64,000 nucleotides of DNA, from contig JAJZDN010000020.1 of NCBI GenBank assembly GCA_021805985.1, positions 1 through 64,000 on the forward strand. The letters are read 5' to 3'. Source of the stretch: Planctomycetota bacterium (GTDB lineage Bacteria > Planctomycetota > Phycisphaerae > WQYP01). Shown here piece by piece: positions 44,896 through 51,347 of the stretch. The position numbers were made by a program, and so were the translations under genes. Each line of letters begins with the position of its first letter. The first letter of the stretch is position 1. The notes under the pieces are model-generated. The model was not told the origin of the DNA. It saw only the letters and a list, made by a program, of their open reading frames with translations, and ran no database searches.

Positions 44896-45300
44896 CTACA
44901 CTTCGGCGATCCTTAATCTGCAATACTCTTGGGCCGCCTGATAATGACGGAGGTTATTGGTCATCAAGGGAATCTCATTGCGGATTGCAGCCGCTGCAAC
45001 CCAGGCATCGCCGGCGGACATCCTCCGGCCGCGTTTGTCACATTCGCCGGCTACGCGCGCCCAAGTCCACGCTAAATCCCGGTCGTAAGGAACAATGACA
45101 CATTGGCGAAATGAATATTCCAACATGTCGATTCGCGGTTGTTGCCAACCCCTGACAACGCTCCATTTGAAAAGCTCCGCTACGGTTTGAAATGAAAGCA
45201 CGATCTGACATCCCCGTAGAGATTCGGAAAAACGCTGTGCCTCCGGACTGCTCTTGAGGATGAAGCTGTATACATCGGTATCAACGGCCACTCGCGTCAT
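44896..45300 (-). CDS. PIN-domain protein, probable VapC-type toxin
   Basis: The 134-residue product has the acidic PIN residues in order: DTDVYSF near the N-terminus, AELFK, and AGDAWVAAAAI with a following MTNN. PIN toxins of the VapC kind are Mg-dependent ribonucleases that cut tRNA or rRNA. It starts at ATG 45300, overlapping by four bases the stop of the small gene upstream, the standard toxin-antitoxin order with antitoxin first. Confidence 0.75.
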   Translation of the reverse strand: MTRVAVDTDVYSFILKSSPEAQRFSESLRGCQIVLSFQTVAELFKWSVVRGWQQPRIDMLEYSFRQCVIVPYDRDLAWTWARVAGECDKRGRRMSAGDAWVAAAAIRNEIPLMTNNLRHYQAAQEYCRLRIAEV

Positions 45301-45659
45301 TGGGGACGCTCCATGTCCTGGGCGCGCCATTGGCGCAACGCGTCATCAAATCCATCGTCCCGGTGCTCCGCCGGCCAGATACCCCCGATGCCATCCAAGG
45401 CCGATTCTCCCGGAACATTCTGTGCGGCGGCGAGTTGATCGAGCGTGTGTGACTGCCAGAATCTGCAAGTTCTTTCGGATTGCTCGTTTCTTTGGGCGGT
45501 GATGTCCCACCACTGGATAACGATCGACTCGGCGTCCCTGCGGTGATGCACAGTGCGCTCGGCAGGAGCCCTCCCTGTATCCGTGTATGCGCTACTCAGA
45601 GGATTAAATAGAAAGCGCCCTGCAAGATCGAAGTGCGTCAGTATGTTAACTGTGGTCAT
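45297..45659 (-). CDS. Probable cognate antitoxin of the PIN toxin
   Basis: The 120-residue protein is hydrophilic. Its C-terminus (LDGIGGIWPAEHRDDGFDDALRQWRAQ) follows the pattern of antitoxin tails that wrap PIN toxins, with a conserved WP..D.F...WR. The N-terminus has no recognised DNA-binding fold. It overlaps the PIN gene by four bases and the TIGR04255 stop by one (TAATG), so the three are probably one transcript. The identification is by position and tail pattern. Confidence 0.5.
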   Translation of the reverse strand: MTTVNILTHFDLAGRFLFNPLSSAYTDTGRAPAERTVHHRRDAESIVIQWWDITAQRNEQSERTCRFWQSHTLDQLAAAQNVPGESALDGIGGIWPAEHRDDGFDDALRQWRAQDMERPQ

Positions 45660-46438
45660 TACGGCGTACCTCCGAGATCAAATTCCGGCTCCAACTGCTC
45701 TATGGTTTCCGGCTTTAGTATACCAAAAAACAGAGCGTGATTGAAACCATGCGCCTGATCAAGCAGCGATCCGAACCGGTCCCAAAAACTCTCCGAGCTT
45801 GCCGGAAAAATGGTATCAATATCAACGAGCAGGCCTTCAGCAGTCGTAAGTTCAGCCTGCACCCGCGCCGGGGCCAGCAGCGTGATGACATGAACAAAAT
45901 CACCCTCGGACAGTTGTGACGTTACCTGCAGCGGTGAACATCCAAGATTGTAGCCCCCCAAATTGAGCTGTCCCTCAAGCGGAGTTAAATAGTCCGGCCC
46001 GGTGGCGGGAACCAGGTCGACATATTTTAAGGAAAAACGCTCAATTGCGGCGATTAATCCCGTCTTCCGGACAACTTCCGCCAGGACCATAATCTCGGAT
46101 TTAAATTTCTCCCAACCTAAATACGGCTTCCGGCAGTTCACGGTAATGGCACGCGGCGCAATCTGAATGCTCAAGGCGGCCTTTTCGCCTGTTCCATCAA
46201 AGCGGAACATGGGGGTGTAGTTGAGTACAGGCTGGTGGACGCGGGCGGCCAAGGGGATGTCGGCGGGGGCCAACCGCACCGGCGTTCCAAAAGAACCGGC
46301 CATTTTGTCATATATAATTCCTGACAGGAGATTTTCAACCGTGTCAGCGCCGCTCTGAAAGCGCAATTCCCAAACCGCTTCAAGCAGCGGCTCTTTTGCA
46401 AGCCGTTTGGGAATTCGTTTTTCTTTCCGCAGCAGCAT
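45659..46438 (-). CDS. TIGR04255-family protein
   Basis: The 259-residue product begins with KRIPKRLAKEPLLEAVWELRFQSG, then YTPMFRFDG and FSLKYVDLVP. These are features I recall from the sporadically distributed TIGR04255 family, whose function is unknown. It is hydrophilic with mixed alpha/beta character and has no membrane segment. It lies upstream of the antitoxin-PIN pair and 120 bases downstream of the cyclase-like gene. The sporadic spread of the family and its neighbours suggest an accessory, perhaps defensive role. Confidence 0.7.
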   Translation of the reverse strand: MLLRKEKRIPKRLAKEPLLEAVWELRFQSGADTVENLLSGIIYDKMAGSFGTPVRLAPADIPLAARVHQPVLNYTPMFRFDGTGEKAALSIQIAPRAITVNCRKPYLGWEKFKSEIMVLAEVVRKTGLIAAIERFSLKYVDLVPATGPDYLTPLEGQLNLGGYNLGCSPLQVTSQLSEGDFVHVITLLAPARVQAELTTAEGLLVDIDTIFPASSESFWDRFGSLLDQAHGFNHALFFGILKPETIEQLEPEFDLGGTP

Positions 46439-46558
46439 GGGCAAATCCTGTTTCATGTTCAGACATGAGCATTCTAGCGAAACTTTGAGAACGTGCGAGT
46501 TCGGGCTGCCCGATGCAGGCCTGCCGGGATCAGCAGCTTGCGAGCGGGCAGAACCCAT

Positions 46559-47476
46559 TCACGGGCCTGGCCCGCCGAAACCGCGGCTTTCAAGGTAGGT
46601 CTTCAGCCATTGGAGTTTTTTGCGCACTCCTTGGTCAGATTCTGTCTGAAGTGCCCCGCGAACCCATTGGTATCCATGTCGGAAAAAATCGTGCGTTTTT
46701 TTGTGGTGGGGATTGTTGGCGTCTATTCCAGCGCGACCAAAAATGTTGGCAAAATCGACAGCACGTATGTCGCCGTTGACATCCGGGGCATAACCAGCTT
46801 TGCTGTTGAGCCTCATCAGCAAGTCCAATGACTGCCGTGCATTGTTGACCCAAGCTCCTTGGAATCTTCCGATGCCGTCCGCCGCTTCCTGCAGCAGCTT
46901 TACCGCGCGTAATCCGAGGTAGGCTCCCGGCGGCGAGTTGGGCATCGAAGCGAGTTGGCAGGCTGCGATGTATGCGGGGCCGGCGATATCTCCTTCTGAG
47001 ACGCGGCGCCTCCCCCGGTCTTGGCTCGGCGGTGTTGTTGTGCTGAAATATTCGCCGACGCTGCGAATGGCTTGTGCAACTCCAACGTCGATGCCCGCCC
47101 GGAAAATCACACCCTCAGCAAGCAACTCGGCCGCCAGTGGAATCATCCCCGTAAGGAGCATTGAAAGCGCCATGGGTTGCGGGTGACCGCGGCAATTTAT
47201 CACCTTAGACGCGACAACCATGCTGTCGGCGAAGCCAAAGGCAACGAAACCGCACTCGAGTGTCCCGGCCAGGCCGGGGTAATCTTCGTTCCGCTTTTCG
47301 AGACTGCGGTTGATGGCAGGCAACAGTTCTTTTGATATTTTCGTTCGAAACAGATCGATCTTGTCGCAAGTAACTTGCGGATTTTCCCATTTGGCCATTT
47401 CTCGCTGAATTCCCAGCAGGTCATAATACGCCACCACCCATTGCTCGTCGGAGTTGTTTTCGTGTTGATCGGCCAT
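46559..47476 (-). CDS. Nucleotide-cyclase-like protein (class III/Pycsar-like fold)
   Basis: The 305-residue protein has YYDLLG at residues 17-22, FGFADS at 80-85, FRAGIDVG at 125-132 and GDIAGPAYIAAC at 162-173. The order, an Asp in a YxDLLG motif, a second Asp in FxDS and a later R-x-G-I-x-x-G, matches the pattern of class III nucleotide cyclases, including the uridylate and cytidylate cyclases of Pycsar antiphage systems. The exact motifs of PycC are not all present, so product and activity cannot be told. Start ATG 47476 follows AAGGGAA. Confidence 0.42.
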   Translation of the reverse strand: MADQHENNSDEQWVVAYYDLLGIQREMAKWENPQVTCDKIDLFRTKISKELLPAINRSLEKRNEDYPGLAGTLECGFVAFGFADSMVVASKVINCRGHPQPMALSMLLTGMIPLAAELLAEGVIFRAGIDVGVAQAIRSVGEYFSTTTPPSQDRGRRRVSEGDIAGPAYIAACQLASMPNSPPGAYLGLRAVKLLQEAADGIGRFQGAWVNNARQSLDLLMRLNSKAGYAPDVNGDIRAVDFANIFGRAGIDANNPHHKKTHDFFRHGYQWVRGALQTESDQGVRKKLQWLKTYLESRGFGGPGP

Positions 47477-47624
47477 ACTATCAATTTCCCTTCGTCCCTT
47501 AATAACGTTCGAGAAACACTGGAGCGGGGCGACGCCGGGCTGCGCCCGGCAAGACTTACTTGCCCAGAACATCAGCCTTAATAAATTGTTTGATCCGACC
47601 ACGCTGCCCTACTTTTTTCCTATT

Positions 47625-47888
47625 CTATCCCAGCGTCTCCACCTTCACGACCCCGTTGCCGCGGGAATCGATAACTTTTACTGCCGCGCGTTTGTGCTTG
47701 CCTGCCAACGGTAAACGCAAAACCGGCGGTAAATGTGGGTTATACGCCTATTGGGCTTTAGGAATTGCGGGCACCACGCCCTCAGCGGCGATTTTGGCGG
47801 GCGGATTATTTTTGCGTTTGGCAGCATGGCGGTAATCAGACATCGCCGTCTGCGGTGCTGCAGTTTTGGAGCCGGTGCGTTTGGCCAT
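47625..47888 (-). pseudogene. Remnant of a type III-like DNA methyltransferase gene
   Basis: From ATG 47888 (with GGGAG upstream) the frame reads MAKRTGSK..MSDYRHAAKRKNNPPAKIAAEGVVPAIPKAQ and hits TAG at 47748-47750 where relatives, as I recall them, continue with a Tyr. The frame then resumes with AYNPHLPPVLR and runs directly into KHKRAAVKVIDSRGNGVVKV and a stop at 47625-47627. The first part matches the start of site-specific adenine methyltransferases and the last part their C-terminus, so the central catalytic part is deleted. Confidence 0.6.
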
Positions 47889-48000
47889 TGAGTAACTCCC
47901 GTACAATGTCGAACAAGGGGGATTGTAAGCTCGATGCGGCCCTGCTGGCCAGTGACCGTTTGGATTGAGGAGCCGGCTCCATTTAAATCGAGCCTACCCC

Positions 48001-48528
48001 ATGTTACCATTGCGATATGGAAAACGAAGATGGGAAAACCCAGTCGGTCCAACGGCACCCCCTGCTGCTGTGGATTCGCAAAATGTAGGGACGAGCGCCG
48101 ATAGTTTCAGCGTGTACGTGCAACATCGTGGGCAGCTTGAGGCCGCAAGACAGAGTTCCGCTGCCCTCTTCGACAAATATACGTTAGCGGGGGCGGGTGG
48201 CGCTGCGGTACTCTCGCTGAGCATTCTGGCCAAGGTCGGAGCCAAACCAAGCTGTGTTATTATCCTTCTGTTTTCGTGGTTATGCTTGGCGTGTTCCGCT
48301 GGCTCCGTTCTGTTGAACTTCCATCTGACCTGCCTGGCAAATGAGGATGCAATCGAAACTGCCGATAGGAGTATCAAGAAAAATTCCGCAGACTATCGGC
48401 GCATATACACCGAAGAAGCGTCGGTGCGGCGATGGGAGCGCCGAATCAAATGCCTGAATATTACCGCACTCGTGACACTGGCACTCGGAGTTTTGCTACT
48501 GCTGCTATTTGCAGGGGTTAATCTTTAG
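48001..48528 (+). CDS. Multi-pass membrane protein, possible effector
   Basis: The 175-residue product has three clear hydrophobic segments (about 63-80, 88-115 and 150-172 of the protein), with hydrophilic parts between. A central pattern (QHRGQLEAARQSSAALFDKYTLAGAGGAAVLSLSIL..) resembles small membrane proteins that are common in genomic islands. ATG 48001 is used; a TTG at 47965 is in frame. It is divergent from the methyltransferase relic and the cyclase-like gene. A membrane effector driven by a cyclic nucleotide is possible but is inference. Confidence 0.5.
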   Translation: MLPLRYGKRRWENPVGPTAPPAAVDSQNVGTSADSFSVYVQHRGQLEAARQSSAALFDKYTLAGAGGAAVLSLSILAKVGAKPSCVIILLFSWLCLACSAGSVLLNFHLTCLANEDAIETADRSIKKNSADYRRIYTEEASVRRWERRIKCLNITALVTLALGVLLLLLFAGVNL

Positions 48529-48552
48529 AGGTTCACTACCGACGGAGGAAAA

Positions 48553-48816
48553 ATGGCAAAAAACAAACAGCCGGCACAGCGGGGAGCACTTTCCGCCACT
48601 CCGGCACGCCCGCGAGTGGCCCGCAACGAAATATCGACGGCAGGGCCGAAGCCGCAAGCTGCGCAAACGGGGGCGCAATTGCAGCCGCAGCCGCAATCCT
48701 CCACCAGCGGTGCGGCGGCTCAGGGAGCAAAGCGCGACGTTGACGCGGGCGGACCCCAACGACGCCGATCTTTTCGGCGGGGGCTATGGCAGGCATCGGA
48801 GCGGCGGCGAATGTGA
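48553..48816 (+). CDS. Small basic Pro/Ala/Gln-rich protein
   Basis: The 87-residue protein is made almost wholly of Ala, Pro, Gln, Arg and Gly, with an Arg-rich tail (QRRRSFRRGLWQASERRRM). A GGAGGA Shine-Dalgarno lies four bases before ATG 48553, and the start is 24 bases after the membrane-protein stop, so it is the second gene of a two-gene operon. It is probably unstructured. No family recognised. Confidence 0.5.
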   Translation: MAKNKQPAQRGALSATPARPRVARNEISTAGPKPQAAQTGAQLQPQPQSSTSGAAAQGAKRDVDAGGPQRRRSFRRGLWQASERRRM

Positions 48817-49106: not shown

Positions 49107-49196
49107 ATGGTTACTTGGAACCCCAAACAGTATCTGAAGTTTGCGGACGAAAGATCGCGGCCCTGCCTGGATCTCATTGGGCGCATTGCGCTGCCA
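49107..49196 (+). pseudogene. 5' remnant of a trans-aconitate methyltransferase (tam) gene
   Basis: ATG 49107 begins a frame reading MVTWNPKQYLKFADERSRP and CLDLIGRIALP, which matches the N-terminus of Tam-type SAM methyltransferases as I recall it. After about 30 residues the similarity ends where the frame runs into the antisense end of the subtilase gene. The glycine-rich SAM motif that should follow is missing. It marks a deletion or insertion edge. Confidence 0.5.
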
Positions 49197-50979
49197 TTTT
49201 GCGTTTGCGCGGCAGCATGAACAGGCCCGAGCCGATGGCGAAGATGGCCAGGGTGGCGGGTTCCGGCACGGTTACGGGGTCGACAAAATTCCACGCCAGG
49301 GCGTATGTGTCGCTGGTGGAAATGGCGTTCACACCGCCCAACATTTCGACCGCGAGATCATACTGCCCGGGCGCTAAGGAATTTATGCCCAATGCCGGGT
49401 TGATATTAATTTGTTGTACGTTGTCTACCATGCTGGTGCTTGCAGCGACCTGCTGACCTGCCGAGTTCAATAAAAACAGCATCAGATGATTGATTCCGCT
49501 GGCATTATAGTTTTTGTTCCAGGTGAGTGTGGCGGTGACATCCCAACTGTTTTGGGAATTTCCGGTCAAATTAAAATCATAATTTTCCACCGCATTGCTG
49601 GAACTGGTGGCCGCGATGGTCGCGAGGTTCCACCCGGTGACCGTGGCTGGATTAGTCATGGAGGCCAACTCTGACACAGGGCCGGAAAAATTGGCGGTAG
49701 GCGCACTGGTAACACTGGGTAAAGCCGCGATGGATTGGGTCGTAGCAGATGAATAAGTGTGTTCGCCACCGGCCAGGTTTTCATAGGAATTATACGCATT
49801 GACCACACCGGAGCCATAGCGCGGATCCAGTGGCGTGGTGGCCGTGGTAGACACAGCATTATACGTATAGGTGCCGTTATTAACGGTATAAGAATTCGTC
49901 CAGCCGACGGGTTTGACGGCACCATTGAGCAGCAGTGCTTTGACCGTGCGGATATCGGTAGCGGCAGTGGTGTAGGCGGTGGCACCTTGGGCGGATATTG
50001 CAGAATCGCTGGAGCTTAGGCCGACGGGGCCGGATAGGTTCGTGCCCCGTCCTGCTTGTTCCAGGAGAGTGGCCACGCCCGAGACAATGGGGGCGGTGTA
50101 ACTGGTATAGGCACCCGGGGCGGTAATATCCGGCTTGGAGCGGCCGTCCCATGTGGGGCCAACCCACGAAGCCTCAGAGCCAGTGGACGGGCTGAAAACG
50201 CCGTTGGTCTCGGTGCCGGTATATGCCCCCACCGCAATTCCGTTATACATATCCGCCGGCGGATTAATGTAGCTCGCTGGAGTAGTGGCGGTGGTTTGGC
50301 CGTCGCCGATAGCCGTGACGTAAAGGGTGTTGTATTGAGCCGCGTAATTGTCCCACACCGCATCCAATTGCTGCGCGGTTCCTGAGGGGACTCCCGGATA
50401 CATAAAGCTCTGGTTGACCACCGAGGGTACGTTATTACTAAGGCCGCCGCTCGGGGGAGCATCATAGTAGATGTCGCTATAGTAGCCTTCTTCTGCGTAA
50501 ACAGTGACGCTCGATACTCCCGTAGAGACTCCACCCGATCCGTAGAATAGCGACGCCACGTAGGTCGCATGGCCGGATCCATACGACGGGTTATATGTAC
50601 CGGATGAGTTTCCGTACGCGTCGAAATACGTCACTTGGGGAACGGTCGCTCCGATACTCGCAAGGTTTGGCTCGAATTCATTCAGGCTCGTGCTGCTCAC
50701 GGATGCCTCTACCTGCGCGACAGCTACGCCCGCACCCGTAAGGGACGGAGCAAGCTGCTGCAACTGCGTAACGCCCACCTGTTGCAGAATGGAATCAGCA
50801 TTGGCCAGGCCGCCTCCGGCCGCAACACCTGCCGCCAGGATCAGGGCGCATGCAGCCCCGGCACCACCGCTAAGCGCTGGGGGCGACTGCGCGGCACAAA
50901 GGAAGTAATTCATATTTTCATGTATATGGCTACTTTTATCGGAACGGCAAAACTTCGGATCTCGCTTTTTAGCGCTCAT
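49174..50979 (-). CDS. S8-family (subtilisin-like) peptidase with PEP-CTERM sorting signal
   Basis: The 601-residue protein has an N-terminal hydrophobic signal (about 35-55), a subtilase region and a PEP-CTERM tail (VPEPATLAIFAIGSGLFMLPRKRK) that would be handled by an exosortase. His137 (GSGHATYVAS) and Ser293 (YTSYTAP) fit the catalytic pattern. The Asp position reads VAQVEAS (Glu91), and the oxyanion Asn region reads AIGDG. So the catalytic set looks altered. Start ATG 50979 has a GGAG Shine-Dalgarno. The tail is followed by seven residues (MAAQCAQ) encoded by what looks like sequence from a neighbouring pseudogene. Confidence 0.75.
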   Translation of the reverse strand: MSAKKRDPKFCRSDKSSHIHENMNYFLCAAQSPPALSGGAGAACALILAAGVAAGGGLANADSILQQVGVTQLQQLAPSLTGAGVAVAQVEASVSSTSLNEFEPNLASIGATVPQVTYFDAYGNSSGTYNPSYGSGHATYVASLFYGSGGVSTGVSSVTVYAEEGYYSDIYYDAPPSGGLSNNVPSVVNQSFMYPGVPSGTAQQLDAVWDNYAAQYNTLYVTAIGDGQTTATTPASYINPPADMYNGIAVGAYTGTETNGVFSPSTGSEASWVGPTWDGRSKPDITAPGAYTSYTAPIVSGVATLLEQAGRGTNLSGPVGLSSSDSAISAQGATAYTTAATDIRTVKALLLNGAVKPVGWTNSYTVNNGTYTYNAVSTTATTPLDPRYGSGVVNAYNSYENLAGGEHTYSSATTQSIAALPSVTSAPTANFSGPVSELASMTNPATVTGWNLATIAATSSSNAVENYDFNLTGNSQNSWDVTATLTWNKNYNASGINHLMLFLLNSAGQQVAASTSMVDNVQQININPALGINSLAPGQYDLAVEMLGGVNAISTSDTYALAWNFVDPVTVPEPATLAIFAIGSGLFMLPRKRKMAAQCAQ

Positions 50980-51347
50980 GGGAAGGCTCCTGTCTGCGGC
51001 ATACCACACAACTAACTCTGACGGCCCTAAGGTCAAGGGCCGTCGGCGAGTAACAACATTTCTTGCATCGACAAGACCACCACAAGTTATAAAATCAAAC
51101 CGCCCGATTAATTGTTATAGGGCAAGGGCAACCATCAAAACCTTATCGCATTTCGGATTACAGGGTGGCTGCGGATACAGGGATCCGTCGCCCGGCAGGC
51201 CCGGCATAACAGAGGTAATTATGAAATGATGATTCGCGAAACAAGTGTTTAAAAACGTCATTATCAGCCGATCCATAAAATTTTTTCGCATATAAGTCTA
51301 TTGAAAGCAAAGGTTTACGGTTCTTGTGAAAAAAACGCAAGTATTTC

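Follow-up and report, generated by a model that had tools for sequence, protein, structure and literature searches.

A recurrent TIGR04255–X–PIN cassette in a planctomycete accessory island as a putative three-part toxin–antitoxin module

Toxin–antitoxin–chaperone (TAC) systems are described as combining a SecB-like chaperone with an antitoxin that carries a C-terminal addiction segment (PMC5105189). One of them, CmdTAC, acts in phage defense, with a capsid protein drawing the chaperone off the antitoxin (PMC11618068). For Panacea (DUF4065), association of one protein family with many unrelated toxins was described (PMC8832971); Pycsar pairs PycC with a transmembrane (TM) or TIR receptor (PMC11224242), and the PADLOC candidate system PDC-M32 was reported in prophages (PMC12429752). 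Here we analyze a locus from a Planctomycetota bacterium (assembly GCA_021805985.1, contig JAJZDN010000020.1, positions 1 to 64,000); this whole stretch of 64,000 nt is further called the window. On its minus strand a cyclase-like gene is followed by a gene of the TIGR04255 family, a small gene that we call X and a PIN-domain gene. We consider it probable that the last three genes make up a tripartite module of toxin–antitoxin type, with TIGR04255 as a common partner or sensor. The genome of the window is coded G000, genomes of relatives have other G numbers and stretches fetched from genomes and sequence records have L numbers.

The first gene of the cassette, TIGR04255 (45659-46438, minus strand; 259 aa), is common to all its versions; X (P0003; 45297-45659, minus strand; 120 aa) is the presumed antitoxin or linker, and the PIN gene (44896-45300, minus strand; 134 aa) encodes the presumed toxin. 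The original prediction had placed four genes on the minus strand, the last three overlapping, and open reading frames (ORFs) are indeed found at these positions: TIGR04255 and X overlap by 1 nt, X and PIN by 4 nt, with the cyclase-like gene located 120 nt upstream of TIGR04255 without overlap. The TIGR04255 call was made by NCBIfam (100.8 bits versus a curated cut-off of 30), and the protein also matches phrog_5464 (E-value 2.5e-39). The PIN call was made by Pfam (28.9 bits versus a cut-off of 23.6); the closest solved relative is Ribonuclease VapC 6nkl (E-value 7.5e-9), with D, E and D of which the residues D7, E42 and D98 align, positions that we take to be the acidic catalytic ones. The third gene thus appears to encode a PIN ribonuclease-like protein with its acidic residues in place.

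For X, scans of Pfam, NCBIfam, PADLOC and phrog gave no family (a single NCBIfam row had E-value 0.1, far under its cut-off), and matches to solved structures were all non-significant. Homologues of X, with 57% identity in G019, 55% in G002 and 45-47% in G010, are each located directly after TIGR04255; in plasmids no relatives of X were found. The label 'antitoxin' given earlier to this 120-aa protein rested on its position; the position after TIGR04255 is kept in relatives, while the family libraries give the protein no name. A likeness of the tail of X to VapB was confirmed by no tool, and we did not use it as evidence.

The order TIGR04255, X, PIN is kept in G019 (identities 75, 57 and 76%) and in G010 (63, 45 and 63%); in G010, however, a frame change close to the beginning of the PIN gene (L171:5896-6330, minus strand) disrupts it, with TIGR04255 and X remaining open. 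In G002, TIGR04255 and X are present (73 and 55% identity) and PIN is absent. Absence or breakage of PIN with the other two genes kept is as expected if PIN is harmful, the number of cases being two.

To describe recurrence of the cassette we have taken 54 fetched places, two relatives, four phage or plasmid records, 11 viral contigs, G002, G017 and the window, i.e. 74 loci with 77 TIGR04255 ORFs (L070, L074 and L097 contribute two pieces each). At least 800 nt are available downstream of 75 of the 77 ORFs, and X and the third gene were counted there within set limits. Three of the 11 viral contigs are copies of the gene of phage Dobby or VW-6S, and the copies (L111/L128/L129 and L110/L136) were left in. 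We observed a same-strand X after TIGR04255 in 68 of 75 cases and a third gene in 66; upstream, a same-strand gene ending within the same limits was observed in 30 of 75. The seven ORFs with no X are in L052, L058, L064, L070, L071, L074 and L089; in L064, scored as lacking X, a plain PIN gene is located downstream of TIGR04255.

The X proteins form families of 19, 9, 4, 4 and fewer members, and the third genes form families of 14, 10, 3 and fewer. The two covary: 139 of the 211 locus pairs sharing an X family also share a third-gene family, while none of 2000 shuffles reached this number (maximum 46), a result inflated by relatedness of the loci. The TIGR04255 proteins average 27% identity when their X proteins belong to one family and 17% when they do not, thus the partners follow one another in part; yet in L053 and L061, with TIGR04255 proteins 52% identical, both X and third genes differ. 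Family scans covered 64 third genes out of 66; the two omitted were short ORFs, one in L070 and the other in L097. Pfam identified PIN in 10 of them, DUF7689 in three, dihydroorotate dehydrogenase in two, and PemK/MazF and metallo-beta-lactamase in one each; PADLOC identified PDC-M32B in five (one model) and the PDC-M32A, PDC-M48B, PDC-M20B, LmuA and RTasMBL models in one each. As read from these sequences, unrelated X/third-gene pairs are exchanged behind a constant TIGR04255. The genome of the window itself has three more TIGR04255 loci, L046 (contig C126), L047 (C96) and L048 (C23), with different X and third genes; the third gene of L047 is a PIN gene by eye, and all three loci are without a cyclase-like gene.

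Two-gene VapBC systems are common, and X and PIN could be an ordinary addiction pair of this type, TIGR04255 being only a regulator or a passenger. The window's PIN is nearest to VapC among solved structures and X is small, as such a pair would have it. However, TIGR04255 is a constant additional gene, preceding X in 68 of 75 cases across unrelated X/third-gene pairs, and X has no DNA-binding family in Pfam and NCBIfam. A VapB-type antitoxin was likewise not recognized in these two libraries, which need not include every VapB type. We regard the two-gene explanation as quite improbable and continue with the three-part module.

Phages carry the cassette as well. We found TIGR04255 in phages, viral contigs and a Phocaeicola plasmid (L110-L113, L128-L138), accompanied in most cases by small X and third genes; the commonest third gene there belongs to a family of 188-209 aa proteins that share a 'CD' motif and are not named in Pfam. 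In phage VW-6S the cassette is located between CI and integrase, in phage Dobby it is beside the portal gene, and phage SNW-1 likewise has a TIGR04255 cassette. The defense context was scanned in five loci, picked for flanks resembling defense genes by eye. A TIGR04255-PIN cassette is situated between an SNF2/NOV_C helicase and DUF1156 in L062 and between DUF1156 and DUF499 in L064; in L069 the cassette comes after a DNA methylase, in L072 it is near a helicase, and in G010 it follows a type III Res and a HATPase-like protein (the latter just under cut-off). Clusters with DUF499 were described as BREX-related or Hma defense systems (PMC12839542).

NCBIfam describes TIGR04255 merely as a sporadic family. 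It was present in 41 of 246 genomes of the phylum and in none of 14 control genomes; none of 17 TIGR04255 proteins was matched by PADLOC, and the name was not found in open-licence PMC papers searched by that one term. An AlphaFold2 model of the window's protein, made with 13 sequences, has pLDDT 85.5 and pTM 0.83 and is a two-lobed alpha/beta saddle. Among the Foldseek matches listed, the sole one below 0.001 was a TBP complex (7z0o chain H, E-value 4.9e-4), and many TBP chains came after it. VIA gave phosphagen kinases with Z 6.8-8.9 (for the top one, rmsd 4.3 with 185 aligned residues) and TBP at ~6.7; a Z of ~8 may reflect perhaps only a common arrangement. The model fits a duplicated saddle-shaped binding protein, and a saddle of two lobes, as predicted here, points to binding more than to catalysis as the task of TIGR04255. 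A SecB-like chaperone, which we expected initially, appears less likely: the confident model gave TBP chains and phosphagen kinases, with SecB absent among the matches listed. Titles retrieved in a search of the literature for toxin systems with a TBP-like fold included none of relevance.

Like the TAC systems (CmdTAC and Mtb HigBA1-SecB) as they are described, the cassette has three genes and one constant kind of partner for unrelated toxin–antitoxin pairs; its genes stand in constant order, and their roles are presumed from sequence. The TAC partner is SecB-like, whereas the TIGR04255 model matches TBP chains, with SecB absent among the matches listed. Panacea, in the published description, shares the link of a single family to many unrelated toxins; however, the antitoxin of its two-gene pairs is PanA itself, while in our cassettes X varies together with the third gene, and TIGR04255 comes in addition to both. 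With VapBC the common feature is PIN, closest to VapC; the differences are X, to which the searched libraries assign no family, and the constant additional gene TIGR04255. In the case of PDC-M32, members of the largest X and third-gene classes match PDC-M32A (its C-terminal part) and PDC-M32B: two members of the largest class have an X that resembles PDC-M32A in its C-terminal part, and for one of them the third protein also gives a weak match to PDC-M32B (E-value 0.0018). The window's own proteins match neither PDC-M32A nor PDC-M32B. The cassette would be of a three-part toxin–antitoxin type with a new constant partner, and one X/third-gene class overlaps PDC-M32. The idea that TIGR04255 could be the N-terminal part of PDC-M32A was dropped, as the HMM found none in three PDC-M32A loci. 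In L173 and L174 the PDC-M32A-type proteins have an X-like C-terminal domain on a different N-terminal part, i.e. the X domain occurs under two kinds of partner.

The mechanism that we infer is modelled on CmdC of CmdTAC. PIN would act as an RNase stopping translation, X would bind PIN and block it, and TIGR04255 would hold or stabilize X, or read out infection through X. A phage product occupying or removing TIGR04255 would make X fail, and PIN would halt growth of the infected cell. Gene order, recurrence, exchange of pairs and carriage by phages are read from the sequences; toxicity, neutralization, sensing and phage defense are inferred. In this reading the cyclase-like gene belongs to the island separately from the cassette, perhaps as an additional effector that is loosely attached.

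Several observations weigh against such a reading. SecB is absent among the 50 matches listed for the TIGR04255 model in each of Foldseek and VIA, the libraries searched do not recognize the window's X as an antitoxin, and the hydrophobic addiction segment expected in X was not general (100 shuffles per protein). ORF calling is mechanical, so some of the X calls are due to chance, as indicated by the upstream baseline. Most of the 64 third genes have no Pfam family, therefore for them 'toxin' stays presumed. Finally, the divergent TIGR04255 loci L071, L076 and L079 precede peptidase-like (by eye) and dihydroorotate-dehydrogenase genes and no toxin, so not every TIGR04255 member belongs to a toxin cassette; L076 and L079 are included in the counts of 68 X and 66 third genes. 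If TIGR04255 is a common partner of many unrelated toxin–antitoxin pairs, a widespread family with 41 of 246 phylum genomes would acquire a function, a second kind of three-part toxin system would exist besides the SecB-based one, and there would be a hint why some phages carry TIGR04255.

The cyclase-like gene (46559-47476, minus strand) codes for a 305-aa protein, P0001, whose role in the system is uncertain and for which no family was found in Pfam, NCBIfam or PADLOC. Its full relatives were found in three of 101 genomes near its own, own genome included (G000, G002 and G017), and in three of 28 genomes of its order; among 392 genomes drawn across the phylum only its own was found. No relatives were found in plasmids, phages or viral contigs (33 stretches, none confirmed). 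In scans of genome contigs the single-protein scan confirmed none of 20 candidate stretches, and the alignment scan confirmed two. Five weak matches of the alignment of the three-member subfamily (A1) elsewhere in the order (E-values 0.003-0.38; four further genomes with weak matches) were judged to be chance.

All three subfamily members match phrog_23933 weakly (E-values 0.003-0.009), a family present in 10 of 246 phylum genomes; nine of the ten phrog_23933 loci (the short piece L106 was left out) made a second alignment, A2. Comparison of A1 and A2 by hhalign gave probability 95.1 and E-value 2.9e-8, and the A2 HMM, used among ORFs of 75 loci, detected the proteins of the window, G002 and G017 with E-values 5.5e-5, 1.2e-6 and 5e-8. 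Against solved structures A2 had eight matches at E-value 10 or below, all of them class III cyclases (the best was guanylyl cyclase 3et6 with 0.0011, the other seven had 0.17-0.92); A1 alone had none at E-value 10. Residues D19, G22, D84, R126 and G132 are invariant in 12 proteins (the three subfamily members and nine phrog_23933 relatives), and D19 and D84 are, by eye, in register with the matched class III cyclases. Profile comparison supports P0001 as a remote and very narrow member (three genomes) of the class III nucleotidyl-cyclase superfamily, in agreement with the earlier description of a cyclase-like protein with D19 and D84 sites; an enzymatic activity receives no such support. Structure prediction with AlphaFold2, proposed as a check of the latter sites, gave a poor model (three sequences, pLDDT 45.7; best Foldseek E-value 0.25). 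Matches of this poor model lean to cyclases, GGDEF and Thg1, none at E-value 0.001, and VIA gave cyclases at Z 6.5-8.1 alongside unrelated ferredoxin-like folds.

In all three cyclase-subfamily genomes TIGR04255 is located downstream of the cyclase-like gene on the same strand, the gap being 120 nt in the window, 78 nt in G002 and ~780 nt in G017. Within the gap of G017 there are a remnant and an ORF that has a single hydrophobic stretch, and TIGR04255 of G017, just 31% identical to the window's, has its own X and PIN. In G238 a distant 259-aa cyclase-like gene comes directly after TIGR04255-X-PIN, and in G204 TIGR04255 is 3.8 kb from a cyclase-like gene on the opposite strand. Pairing in three of three genomes, together with the cousin in G238, makes the association suggestive and a functional link of the cyclase with the cassette possible. 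One could then speak of a four-part system, in which a cyclase-like enzyme of the TIGR04255 module is a second effector or a signal source acting with PIN; a PanAT pair with a putative nucleotide cyclase as toxin was described (PMC8832971). Still, the window's cassette occurs in G010 and G019 with no cyclase-like gene, and such a gene is also missing from 52 of the 54 other fetched TIGR04255 loci, three of them in G000 (in these loci 40 TIGR04255 ORFs have at least 4 kb on both sides). In the wider cyclase family, found in 16 of 294 genomes at E-value 1e-5, TIGR04255 was within the fetched stretch in two of 16 loci (flanks of 5 kb on each side are available for nine of these loci). Clustering of defense genes happens anyway, and the association was counted without a control defense gene. 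We consider the four-part system unlikely. Of the co-occurrence that the original prediction put forward, TIGR04255 with PIN was seen elsewhere, so that the refuting outcome named there did not appear, and cyclase with TIGR04255 was seen in the three subfamily genomes; the cassettes of G010 and G019 lack the cyclase. In G056 a cyclase-like gene (L156:7787-8713) was observed between methylase and specificity genes of an apparent type I restriction operon (by eye).

A more general reading seems to us possible but doubtful. TIGR04255 would be a new sensor or chaperone family with a TBP-like saddle that arms unrelated antitoxin–toxin pairs against phages, the cassettes would pass between phages and defense islands through exchange of their X–toxin pairs, and in this lineage a catalytically altered class III cyclase would be added as a second output, with one sensor controlling an RNase and a nucleotide-using enzyme.

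A nucleotide cyclase near a membrane protein and a toxin was earlier taken as the plan of signalling antiphage systems such as Pycsar. In a Pycsar or Pycsar-like system the cyclase would make a cyclic nucleotide upon infection, opening the membrane protein. The likeness consists of the remote profile match of P0001 and the presence of both invariant Asp residues in a protein encoded near a membrane gene; also, in G017 the end of the cyclase gene is overlapped by an unrelated ORF that by eye has a single hydrophobic stretch, thus a variable membrane partner is possible. Nevertheless, the window's membrane gene is divergent and is located behind gene remnants, and next to the cyclase of G002 and G017 no homologue of it was found. 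The libraries name no effector, and no recurring effector was seen by eye among 12 wider-family cyclase loci with neighbors inspected. PADLOC, the library of which we take to include Pycsar models, matches none of six window proteins or 12 cyclase relatives, and in none of the six does Pfam find a domain that binds cyclic nucleotides. Asn and Arg of the canonical transition-state positions are not evident in P0001 ('GPAYIAACQLAS'), i.e. its motif appears altered there. Metal Asp residues D19 and D84 of P0001 are 65 residues apart. The spacing is 44 residues in two Pycsar cyclases, D102/D146 and D62/D106 (PMC11224242). With the cassette occurring without cyclase in G010 and G019 and the membrane gene unlinked elsewhere, the tempting Pycsar reading of the island had to be corrected; we find it very improbable, and the cluster looks more like an unstudied phage-defense switch than a cyclic-nucleotide alarm.

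Upstream of the cyclase-like gene the window retains, as a remnant, the final 20 codons of a DUF1828 gene (47559-47618, minus strand; tblastn 70% over 20 aa, E-value 0.001); DUF1828 is intact upstream of the cyclase in G002 (L004:2077-2847), and 96 residues were matched in G017. The next remnant (47620-47890, minus strand) is a decayed gene with an in-frame stop in its translation; by eye it resembles both ends of a methyltransferase gene, presumably that of a DNA methyltransferase (Mod). A remnant ending 'VKVID.RGN.V..VE.L' was found in the window, G002 and G017; in G002 a similar C-terminal stretch precedes the DUF1828 pair, and in G017 such a stretch precedes TIGR04255. The island is a decaying patchwork, in which remnants of lost genes separate the cyclase-like gene from the membrane gene.

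The divergent membrane ORF (47965-48528, plus strand; hydrophobic stretches by eye) has homologues in three of 60 relatives (G002, G023 and G054), 33-46% identical; as they align from residue 46-50, the true start is probably near 48100. In G002 the homologue is on contig C56, a different contig from that of the cyclase, and none was found in the fetched stretches of G002, G017, G010 and G019. The small basic ORF beside it (48553-48816, plus strand; 87 aa), of unproven status, matches no Pfam, NCBIfam or PADLOC family; thus, of the predicted divergent pair, the membrane ORF is conserved from about residue 46 and the basic ORF has no family. Further along, a 620-aa ORF (49174-51036, minus strand) ends, by eye, in a PEP-CTERM-like sorting signal.

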